This document shows positions 49,120-56,600 of a DNA stretch of 64,000 nucleotides, in pieces. Positions within the stretch are counted from its first letter, which is position 1, and each line of letters opens with the position of its first letter. The notes beneath the pieces were generated by a model. That model was not told where the DNA came from. It ran no database searches and worked only from the letters and a program-made list of their open reading frames with translations. The translations under genes and the position numbers were made by a program. Origin of the DNA: Sphingomonas caeni (GTDB taxonomy: Bacteria > Pseudomonadota > Alphaproteobacteria > Sphingomonadales > Sphingomonadaceae); NCBI RefSeq assembly GCF_026013415.1, contig NZ_JAPDOK010000001.1, positions 189,342 through 253,341 on the forward strand, given 5' to 3'.

Positions 49120-49240
49120 CACAAGACACCTTCATCAAAGGCCGTCTCGTAGGTGCGAGACCGACCCATTTGGTGTCGCTCGCTCGGGGGGTTTCATCCC
49201 CCGTCCGCCCGGTGCACCCCGCCCGCGCGAAGGAATCGAC

Positions 49241-49404
49241 TGTGACCGGCAGGTCTCCTGGCTTCCGGGTCGCCACCGGGCGCGTCGCCTTCCCGAAGCA
49301 TGCGCTCCAGTGGCTTTCATGACGCGCCGGTTCACCGGTCACAGTTGCGGGGGCAGCATCGGTCTTGAACCGATTTCCCTTTTCATCCCTTGCGGGACAC
49401 CGTT
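49241..49404 (-). promoter_or_regulatory. Cobalamin riboswitch
   Basis: On the minus strand the canonical order is complete: CGGTGTCCCGC, AAGGGAT-GAAAAGGGAA, GCTGCCCCCGCAACTGTGA, GCCACTG, GGGAAGGCG and the B12 box GCCAGGAGACCTGCC. Adenosylcobalamin binding to this RNA normally switches off expression downstream. It precedes btuB and hence the whole importer operon. Confidence 0.97.
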
Positions 49405-49576
49405 CACGGCTCGCCCTGTATCGGGCACGCCCCGCCGTTGCAACCGCCCGCGCGGCAGCCGGGAACCCGCACCGTCCGGAATCGTTACGCTCGCGTAGCG
49501 GGTGTAGGGCCCGCTAAGCGCTTGACCCACCGGCGCAAGTTTAGAACAAAGCGAACGCAGCCGGGGGGCGGCTACG

Positions 49577-54006: not shown

Positions 54007-54081
54007 TGGTGGGCGTGGCAAGGATTGAACTTGCGACCCCTGCGATGTCAACACAGTGCTCTACCACTGAGCTACACGCCC
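54007..54081 (-). tRNA. tRNA-Val (GAC anticodon)
   Basis: A 75-base cloverleaf on the minus strand including an encoded CCA. Acceptor GGGCGTG pairs with CACGCCC; the D arm is GCTC-AGTGGTA-GAGC; the anticodon stem CTGTG/CGCAG closes the loop TTGACAT with anticodon GAC; the T arm reads GGGTC-GCAAGTTCAATCC-like around TTCAATC. The discriminator base is A. Confidence 0.95.
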
Positions 54082-54170: not shown

Positions 54171-54548
54171 TCAGATATTCGTCGAAAAGCTGTCGCGCTC
54201 GAACAGCCGGTCCACCTCGAGCACCAGGTCGCGCAAATGGAAGGGCTTGGAGAGCACCCGCGCCTGCGGCACCTGCTTGCCGGCCTTGAGCGTCACCGCC
54301 GCAAAGCCGGTGATGAACATCACCCGCATGTCGGGCGCGATGTCGCCCGCGCGCTGCGCCAGCTCGATCCCGTCCATCTCGGGCATGACGATGTCGGTCA
54401 GCAGCAGGTCGAACTGCTCATTCTCAAGCAGCGGCAGCGCCTCGGTGCCGCGGTCGACCGCGCTGACGGCATAGCCCGAACGCTCGAGCGCGCGCGTCAG
54501 ATATTCGCGCATCACCTTGTCGTCCTCGGCCAGCAAAATACGATACAT
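54171..54548 (-). CDS. cpdR: Single-domain response regulator CpdR
   Basis: A 125-residue stand-alone receiver. It starts MYRILLAEDDKVMREYL, has Asp52 in LLLTDIVMPEMDG and Lys in VLSKPFHLRDL. The sequence and length match CpdR, which in its unphosphorylated state brings ClpXP and its substrates together at the cell pole, promoting turnover of cell-cycle proteins including CtrA. The ATG at 54548 gives the family start; the reading from 54593 is longer than usual. Confidence 0.92.
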   Translation of the reverse strand: MYRILLAEDDKVMREYLTRALERSGYAVSAVDRGTEALPLLENEQFDLLLTDIVMPEMDGIELAQRAGDIAPDMRVMFITGFAAVTLKAGKQVPQARVLSKPFHLRDLVLEVDRLFERDSFSTNI

Positions 54549-54667
54549 GCGGTCCCCACCCTGGTCTTGGTCGGCAGCGATACTATGCGCCAAGCCCTTA
54601 AGATTTTCCAGCGCGCCGCGCGACGTGCCGTTGCCGTCTTGGGACGGTATCCCTATTCGATGACATC

Positions 54668-55513
54668 GTGACGTCGGCCGCTTCCTTCCAGCTTCATGGT
54701 CCCGAGGACCCGGTCAGCCCGGTGATCCTGTCGGTGCCGCATGCCGGGCGCGACTATCCGCTGCCGCTCCGCGCGGCGCTGCGGGTGCCCCTCGCCGCGC
54801 TCCGCCCGCTCGAGGATCGCCACGCCGACGATCTCGCCATCGCGGCGCGCGGCGGCGAGACCCTGTTCGTCGCCCGCCGCGCCCGCGCCTGGATCGATCT
54901 CAACCGCGCCGAGCATGAGCGCGACCCCAAGCTCGACGACGGCGCCTCGCCCAAATCCCAGCCCTTGTCCGCCAAGCTTCGCAGCGGGCTCGGCCTCGTC
55001 CCCCGTCGCGTCGCCACGGCGGGCGACATCTGGCAGCGCCGCCTCACCGGCGAGGAAGTCGGCGCGCGCATCGCCGCCGATCACCGCCCCTATCACGCGG
55101 CGCTTGCCGGCGCCCTGAAGGCGGCGCGCGACCGCTTCGGGATCGCGGTCCTGCTCGACATCCACTCGATGCCCCCGCTCGGCGCTCCCGAGACCGCCCC
55201 GCGCATCGTCCTGGGCGACCGGTTCGGCCGCTCGGCCTCGTCGCGTTTCCTGGGCCGGCTCGAAGGCGTCGCCCGCGCCCATTGCATCGCCTCGGCGATC
55301 AACGCCCCCTATTCGGGCGGCCACATCCTCGACCGCCACGCCGATCCGCGAAAGCATATCCACGCGATCCAGATCGAGTTCGACCGCTCGCTCTATCTGG
55401 ACGAGCGCCTCGACCTGCCCGGCCCCGGCTTCGCCGCCGCCGTCCGCGCGCTCAAGGCGATGATCGAGGCCGTCGCCGACGAAGCGCTCCCCGCGGCGAT
55501 CGCCGCGGAGTGA
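54668..55513 (+). CDS. N-formylglutamate amidohydrolase family protein
   Basis: A 281-residue hydrolase of the HutG/FGase family. Blocks: VILSVPHAGRDYP near the N-terminus, DLNRAEHERDP, ADHRPYHAAL, LLDIHSMPP and APYSGGHI-DRH. It would release formate from N-formylglutamate, the end of one histidine breakdown route, but no other hut genes are present, so the substrate is uncertain. The start is a GTG; the nearby ATG at 54660 hits a stop at once. Confidence 0.88.
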   Translation: MTSAASFQLHGPEDPVSPVILSVPHAGRDYPLPLRAALRVPLAALRPLEDRHADDLAIAARGGETLFVARRARAWIDLNRAEHERDPKLDDGASPKSQPLSAKLRSGLGLVPRRVATAGDIWQRRLTGEEVGARIAADHRPYHAALAGALKAARDRFGIAVLLDIHSMPPLGAPETAPRIVLGDRFGRSASSRFLGRLEGVARAHCIASAINAPYSGGHILDRHADPRKHIHAIQIEFDRSLYLDERLDLPGPGFAAAVRALKAMIEAVADEALPAAIAAE

Positions 55514-55560: not shown

Positions 55561-55665
55561 AAAAAAACCGCCCGGTGTTTCCACCGGGCGGCCAAGGTTC
55601 AGGGAGGAGACACGCCCGGAGGCGTGTCGCACGATCCCGCGAAAGGGGGGACACGAGACCATGCA
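55561..55665 (-). ncRNA. Candidate small RNA with its own promoter and terminator
   Basis: On the minus strand, TTGAAA (55695-55700) and TATATC (55672-55677) are exactly 17 bases apart, a good sigma-70 promoter. About 100 bases on, a perfect 10-base-pair hairpin (55568-55577/55582-55591) is followed by seven Ts. Between lie an 8-base-pair hairpin (55609-55616/55621-55628) and an exposed CTCCTCCCT (55601-55609), which resembles the anti-Shine-Dalgarno motifs of several alphaproteobacterial sRNAs. There is no protein-coding frame with a ribosome site. sapC has a separate terminator upstream. Confidence 0.7.
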
Positions 55666-55770
55666 AGAAGGGATATACGTAACAGGGCCTTAGGTTTCAA
55701 GACCATGCCCCGCACTGCGGCAAAACGCGCAAGGCCCGGGTTCAGCCGTGGCGGCGCGTCCGAAAAGGAA

Positions 55771-55804
55771 ACGGCGCGGCGAGGATGGTCCCTCGCCGCG
55801 CCGT
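55771..55804 (-). terminator. Intrinsic terminator of sapC
   Basis: A perfect 14-base-pair stem (55771-55784 with 55791-55804), followed on the minus strand by TTTCCTTTTC, 19 bases after the sapC stop. Confidence 0.85.
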
Positions 55805-55823: not shown

Positions 55824-56600
55824 TCAGCTCACCAGCTGCGGCACCGGCGTCTTGCCCTGCTGCTGCTGGCGCGCGAACACGTCGCGCATCATCGAGAGCG
55901 AGAAGAGATGGGCGTAGATGAGCGGCAGCATGCCGTTCTGGACGATCTTGCGCAGCTGATCGCCGCGCAGCTCGTTGAGCTTCGCCTCGTCGACCATCAG
56001 GAAGCCGCGATAGATGAACGGCTGCGCCGCGCCCTCGGGCTGGATGGTGACCTCGCCGTCGATCAGGATGTCGAGCTCCTTGAGGTCCTTGATGAACATC
56101 GCGGTGCGCTGGCCGGCCTGTTCGAACTGCTCGTTGAAGCCGAGGATCGCCTTGGTCGCCTCGCTCGGCTGGCCGTCCTCGAACAGCCGCTCGCCCTCGT
56201 CGAACTTGCCGATCAGGTCGGTGGTCGGATCGAAGCACAGCGACAGCTCGTCATTGTCCGGGTTCAGCCGCGCGAGCAGATAGGGGTAACGGCGGATATA
56301 GGCGGGGACGTAGAACGGGTCCTGGGTCAGCTTGCCCTCTTCGTCGAAGAAGACGTTGACGCCCTCGTTGAGGCCCATCAGCGCCAGCGGCACCGGCTCG
56401 TCGCCCACCGAGAAGACGATCGGCATGTGGCGCTGCGCGACCGGGAACTCCTCCACCGTCAGCGGAATCGCGTGGACGTTCGCCACGAACGGCGCGCGAT
56501 CGGCGCCGCGGATGCGGAAATCGGCATGCTCTTGGGTCGAAAGCGGCATGAGGTCCTTGTAGAACAAGGGAAGTGCCTGCTGCTGCGGCGCGCTGGCCAT
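55824..56600 (-). CDS. sapC: SapC family protein
   Basis: A 258-residue protein with the SapC hallmark blocks PLFYKDLMPL near the N-terminus, PFVANVHAIPLTVEEF, PIVFS and GLNEGVNVFFDEEGKL. SapC-like proteins are common in sphingomonads and relatives, sometimes next to TonB receptors, and were first noted with surface-layer proteins; the biochemical role is not known. Here it stands alone with its own terminator. The ATG at 56600 has AGGAG upstream. Confidence 0.9.
   Translation of the reverse strand: MASAPQQQALPLFYKDLMPLSTQEHADFRIRGADRAPFVANVHAIPLTVEEFPVAQRHMPIVFSVGDEPVPLALMGLNEGVNVFFDEEGKLTQDPFYVPAYIRRYPYLLARLNPDNDELSLCFDPTTDLIGKFDEGERLFEDGQPSEATKAILGFNEQFEQAGQRTAMFIKDLKELDILIDGEVTIQPEGAAQPFIYRGFLMVDEAKLNELRGDQLRKIVQNGMLPLIYAHLFSLSMMRDVFARQQQQGKTPVPQLVS

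Follow-up and report, generated by a model that had tools for sequence, protein, structure and literature searches.

Locus layout and predicted fold

The 64,000-nucleotide stretch of Sphingomonas caeni DNA analyzed here (the window) carries on its minus strand a predicted small RNA (sRNA) flanked by an N-formylglutamate amidohydrolase gene (FGase) and by sapC (Table 1). FGase adjoins the RNA in 28 of 30 loci of the genus and in 45 of 50 further loci of the order. The sapC gene is also adjacent in 28 of the 30 genus loci, at a distance that varies (its end is more than 600 nt away in L007, L014, and L015). In much of the family, a response-regulator receiver gene (54171 to 54593, minus strand) and a tRNA gene (54010 to 54081, minus strand) likewise remain beside this FGase-sRNA-sapC block. 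The window also contains a cobalamin riboswitch (49231 to 49419, minus strand, 121 bits).

Table 1. Coordinates in the window of the predicted RNA, its elements, and the adjoining genes
Feature	Position	Strand	Remarks
FGase	54668..55513	plus	PF05013, 195 bits; convergent neighbor
Predicted sRNA transcript	55561..55664	minus	About 104 nt; 5' end placed from the -10 box
Rho-independent terminator	Stem 55593-55566; seven Ts 55567-55561	minus	12-bp stem, 4-nt loop
Single-stranded anti-SD core, UCCUCCCUGAACCUU	55594..55608	minus	Unpaired probability 0.86-1.0
Hairpin 2, GACACGCC-UCCG-GGCGUGUC	55609..55628	minus	Corresponds to the first hairpin of RF00519
Hairpin 1 (5')	55629..55664	minus	13-bp stem; addition relative to the RF00519 model
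C-rich loop element of hairpin 1, CGUGUCCCCCCUUUCGCG	55638..55655	minus	Near-invariant in 30 genus orthologs
Unpaired part of hairpin 1 loop, UCCCCCCUUU	55651-55642	minus	
-10 box, TATATC	55677-55672	minus	17-nt spacer from the -35 box; read from sequence
-35 box, TTGAAA	55700-55695	minus	Read from sequence
G+C-rich hairpin after sapC	55771..55804	minus	14-bp stem, tail TTCCTTTT; read from sequence; probable terminator
sapC	55824..56600	minus	PF07277, 227 bits; upstream, same strand as the RNA

A preliminary description of this DNA had reported promoter-like boxes, about 100 transcribed bases, and a perfect terminator with seven Ts, all of which were found on the minus strand. A start at about position 55664 would lie 7 to 8 nt past the -10 box and give a transcript of about 104 nt through the end of the T-run, whose terminator was the sole terminator-like site within 3.5 kb in a consensus scan. 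The same description credited sapC with a terminator of its own; the 14-bp hairpin makes this plausible, but its T tail is imperfect and was not called by the consensus scan.

The predicted fold of the RNA has a free energy of -62.4 to -62.6 kcal/mol (z = -8.0 relative to dinucleotide shuffles) and exposes two anti-Shine-Dalgarno (anti-SD)-like sites in the Sphingomonas RNA, namely, the C-rich loop of hairpin 1 and the classic core. The near-invariant loop of hairpin 1 was absent from the preliminary description. The anti-SD 9-mer CTCCTCCCT (55609 to 55601, minus strand) had been portrayed as unpaired between two hairpins, which holds for most of its length but not for its first C. Because this C closes hairpin 2, the single-stranded portion is UCCUCCCUGAACCUU. 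The 9-mer is not enriched genome-wide, with 9 copies compared to 14 for a reversed control; since it is not rare in the genome, the case for the RNA rests on conservation and not on motif frequency.

Conservation and covariation of the RNA

A 139-base segment covering the RNA gave DNA-similarity matches in 34 of the 36 other genomes of the genus, the two genomes without a match being incomplete assemblies. Among 30 aligned genus loci, two-sided compensatory changes were found in 20 of the 33 base pairs, a result obtained in 0 of 500 shuffles. Paired cells amounted to 98.0% compared to 88.1% in shuffles, and none of the 500 shuffles reached any of the five measures. The signal was distributed over all three helices, with two-sided changes in 7 of 12 pairs of helix 1 (95.5% of cells paired across the 30 sequences), 6 of 8 pairs of hairpin 2 (100% of cells paired), and 7 of 13 pairs of the terminator stem. 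While the stems vary, the core UCCUCCCUGAACCU is invariant in all 30 genus orthologs and the CGUGUCCCCCCUUUCGCG loop is almost so. At the level of the order, covariance model R1 matched 186 of 248 genomes, belonging to 62 of 71 genera. Among 65 distinct sequences of the order, 30 of the 33 pairs vary on both sides (12 of 12 in helix 1), in an alignment that is model-fitted and therefore leans towards the model. In both the genus and the order, covariation was far above that of shuffles and slid controls. The stems and the CCTCC motif, on whose conservation in related genomes the preliminary description had staked its reading, are strongly conserved.

The promoter boxes are conserved as well. 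In the genus alignment, a -35 sequence, (C)TTGAA or TTGCAA, occurs at equal distance and a -10 sequence, TATATT, TAAGTT, or TATGTT, at the matching position, with near-fixed box spacing across the 30 loci, and the region upstream of the boxes shows no conservation. Scanning named genomes for the exact 18-mer CGUGUCCCCCCUUUCGCG returned almost only Sphingomonas and close relatives. The anti-SD core lay 26 to 31 nt downstream of the 18-mer in 77 of 80 contigs; the remaining three comprised two apparent chance matches in unrelated metagenome-assembled genomes and one locus truncated at the end of the available contig sequence. A matching -35/-10 pair was present in 75 of the 77 contigs carrying both the 5' loop and the core. 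In other genera of the family, loop 1 is UUCCCCUCAUGG-like, compared to UCCCCCCUUU in Sphingomonas. One record titled Arthrobacter sp. TPD3018 (L311, QDFQ01000002.1) carries the Sphingomonas-specific sRNA and is probably a misnamed Sphingomonas.

Given the orthologs throughout the genus, the compensatory changes, and the conserved boxes, the stand-alone sRNA put forward in the preliminary description, i.e., a structured RNA transcribed as an independent unit, is well supported by comparative sequence data. Very probably, its product is a conserved regulatory RNA, about 104 bases long, that is predicted to block the ribosome-binding sites of target messages.

Three other readings of the same element were weighed against these data. 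The preliminary description had suggested a structural switch in which GACACGCC pairs either with the downstream hairpin arm or with an upstream CGTGTC in mutually exclusive folds. The two segments are indeed complementary, and the alternative helix has 92.8% of its cells paired, but this figure arises because both sides are conserved, equals the shuffled expectation of 92.4% (187 of 500), and comes without covariation. In addition, 11 of 30 orthologs cannot form the outer alternative pair C18-G51 but compensate in hairpin 2, and the alternative fold lies about 20 kcal/mol above the predicted one (-42.5 compared to -62.6 kcal/mol). We therefore dropped the switch as very improbable. The element might instead act only in cis, either as a read-through 3' untranslated region of sapC or as a bidirectional terminator shared by sapC and FGase, with no trans function; the imperfect T-run of the sapC terminator and the position of the RNA between convergent genes would fit such an arrangement. 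Yet 75 of 77 contigs have the promoter boxes at a constant distance, conservation does not extend upstream of the boxes, and the distance to sapC is variable. The most invariant positions are also unpaired loops rather than stems, and a terminator needs no such loops, which makes a purely cis role quite improbable. Finally, an ATG at position 55662 opens a minus-strand frame, as would be needed if the RNA were an mRNA for a small protein. However, that frame has no stop inside the transcript and runs antisense through FGase, the ATG is replaced by GTACGG in most orthologs, loop lengths vary by 1 to 3 nt so that any frame is broken, and the sequence changes are compensatory for pairing. A coding function can thus practically be discounted.

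Relationship to alphaR8 and to other RF00519 loci

Members of the alphaR8 family are recognized by a terminator, by an unpaired UUUCCUCCCU that follows a hairpin, and, in most species, by a position next to an N-formylglutamate amidohydrolase gene (PMC12559287). Each of these hallmarks has a counterpart at the Sphingomonas locus. A Rho-independent terminator with a covarying 12-bp stem and seven Ts directly follows the core, the RNA is linked to FGase, and a single-stranded 10-mer of the UUUCCUCCCU type lies downstream of a hairpin. The core plus its two preceding bases reads UCUCCUCCCU, a 9/10 match to the alphaR8 10-mer, in which UCCUCCCU is unpaired. The covariance-model match is also full length, as RF00519 (suhB/mmgR) aligns over model positions 1 to 77 of 77 to 55632-55553 with 37.2 bits (E = 2e-6), below the Rfam gathering cutoff of 41 bits, which is an annotation cutoff and not a biological trait. 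None of the 20 Sphingomonadaceae orthologs tested reached the gathering score either, and the Rfam scan of the locus returned no rival family near the level of RF00519. In other families of the order, FGase-linked syntenic loci reach 50 to 67 bits (maximum, 67.4), and the exact UUUCCUCCCU is found in these other families at syntenic loci L097 and L129 and at FGase-linked loci among L039 to L060. Because the window locus falls below the gathering score while syntenic loci elsewhere pass it, we filed it as a divergent alphaR8 variant.

On sequence and positional grounds, the RNA is a positional ortholog of the alphaR8 family, and we consider it likely that the locus is the Sphingomonas copy of the FGase-linked, trans-acting alphaR8 sRNA (known as MmgR in Sinorhizobium and as SisA in Caulobacter), with a length of about 104 nt. 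Its membership in this family, beside FGase, was missed in the preliminary description. The Sphingomonas RNA shares with SisA and MmgR the order of hairpin, single-stranded UCCUCCCU core, and Rho-independent terminator, as well as the FGase linkage, but differs in several respects. It has an extra 5' hairpin with a conserved C-rich loop, located 5' of the RF00519 model, and carries UCUCCUCCCU where alphaR8 has UUUCCUCCCU. Its hairpin 2 is longer and G+C-rich, whereas the first hairpin of alphaR8 is weak. MmgR is only 77 nt long, and SisA pairs via nt 33 to 45, compared to a core at about +57 in Sphingomonas. The RNA appears to be a regulator of an ordinary type, namely, a well-supported alphaR8 variant that has been poorly annotated to date.

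An unrelated anti-SD sRNA, such as AbcR (alphar15), NfeR1 (alphar14), or cuckoo/CcsR, could have come to resemble alphaR8 by convergence on CCUCC. AbcR1 and AbcR2 carry CUCCUCCC in a 5' loop and UUCCCCUC between SL1 and SL2 (PMC8844928), and the Sphingomonas RNA resembles them in layout, with one C-rich anti-SD site in the loop of its 5' hairpin and another, separate one between stems. Furthermore, alphar15 RNAs have been described as partly homologous to RF00519 (PMC7143759). However, the order of UUCCCCUC and CUCCUCCC is swapped, the locus is another one, adjoining FGase and not an ArsR/lsrB pair, and the Rfam scan up to E = 10 matched RF00519 over its full length but listed no family of the AbcR or NfeR type. 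Intermediates that have the exact alphaR8 10-mer are also present at this locus in members of the order. The likeness to AbcR is one of layout and not evidence of descent, and convergence is an improbable explanation compared to alphaR8 membership.

Two RF00519 matches above the cutoff were found elsewhere in the same genome (L069, C12:317986-318063; L070, C2:72502-72577). They differ from the FGase-linked RNA in having the core AUCCUCUCCUAAA and another upstream block; GCCTTTCAGGCATCCTCTCCTAAA is common to both, as is a conserved block upstream in which TTGCA/TGCAA is frequent (CTTTTCGCACTTGCAACATA in relatives). No FGase match was found near L069, L070, or the sampled relatives L045, L046, L049, L055, L058, L059, L061, and L062. 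These loci may represent a separate sphingomonad sRNA family or divergent siblings of alphaR8, possibly, as a guess, under the control of a PhaR/AniA-like regulator. In Sphingopyxis granuli TFA, SuhB, which bears the RF00519 name, is a sphingomonad sRNA that blocks thnR translation with Hfq (PMC6563040). Its reported length of 61 nt is too short for the Sphingomonas RNA of about 104 nt, and it may correspond instead to matches that are not linked to FGase, such as L069 and L070. In Sphingomonas, standard annotation overlooks the ortholog linked to FGase but labels other loci suhB, and studies that rely on Rfam may therefore target the wrong gene. In alphaproteobacteria, alphaR8 RNAs regulate how carbon is stored and nutrients are taken up.

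Proposed mode of action, candidate targets, and the 5' loop

The RNA would have a sigma-70-type promoter of its own, and Hfq would bind it at the U-run of the terminator. Its core would pair with ribosome-binding sites that are rich in purines (AGGGAGGA) and lie shortly before start codons, resulting in a translation block and in destabilization of the target mRNAs. By analogy with SisA, the targets are expected among nutrient-uptake functions, notably TonB-dependent receptors. SisA associates with Hfq, its targets are rich in TonB-dependent receptors, and reporter and compensatory-mutation experiments show that it represses a TonB-dependent receptor mRNA via the 10-mer (PMC12559287). From these experiments and from the exposed, invariant core of the Sphingomonas RNA, we infer that the RNA most likely acts in trans in an Hfq-dependent manner, pairing with ribosome-binding sites and thereby repressing uptake genes, for example, those for TonB-dependent receptors.

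In six genomes of the genus, a TonB plug domain was encoded by 5 of the 40 open reading frames (ORFs) preceded by AGGGAGGA, compared to about 1.4% of genes (binomial P of about 2e-4; the background derives from 329 plug matches in roughly 24.9 Mb and an estimated 0.95 genes per kb), a comparison confounded by general SD strength and bearing on a receptor class considered partly post hoc, after the matches had been seen. None of the 12 such ORFs in the S. caeni genome encodes a TonB plug. For these three reasons, the enrichment is only suggestive of receptor targets. Perfect-match candidates of the form AGGGAGGA-N3-12-ATG numbered 17 in the S. caeni genome and 12 in a close relative, with no protein in common.

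That the 5' loop is nearly invariant throughout the genus suggests a second functional site. This loop, UCCCCCCUUUCG in Sphingomonas and UUCCCCUCAUGG-like in other genera, would most likely be another anti-SD-like seed, directed at other targets, or a docking site for a sponge RNA or a protein. We tentatively propose, as a possibility somewhat short of an even chance, that the Sphingomonadaceae alphaR8 gained a second, independent seed, carried by a 5' hairpin that covaries and has a C-rich loop conserved to almost the same degree as the classic core. If so, one RNA could control two target sets or be titrated via one site while acting via the other. Candidate targets of loop 1, of the form GAAAGGGGG-N-ATG, gave 24 matches in six genomes compared to 5 for the control, and one of the matches in the S. 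caeni genome is the antisense of the sRNA locus itself.
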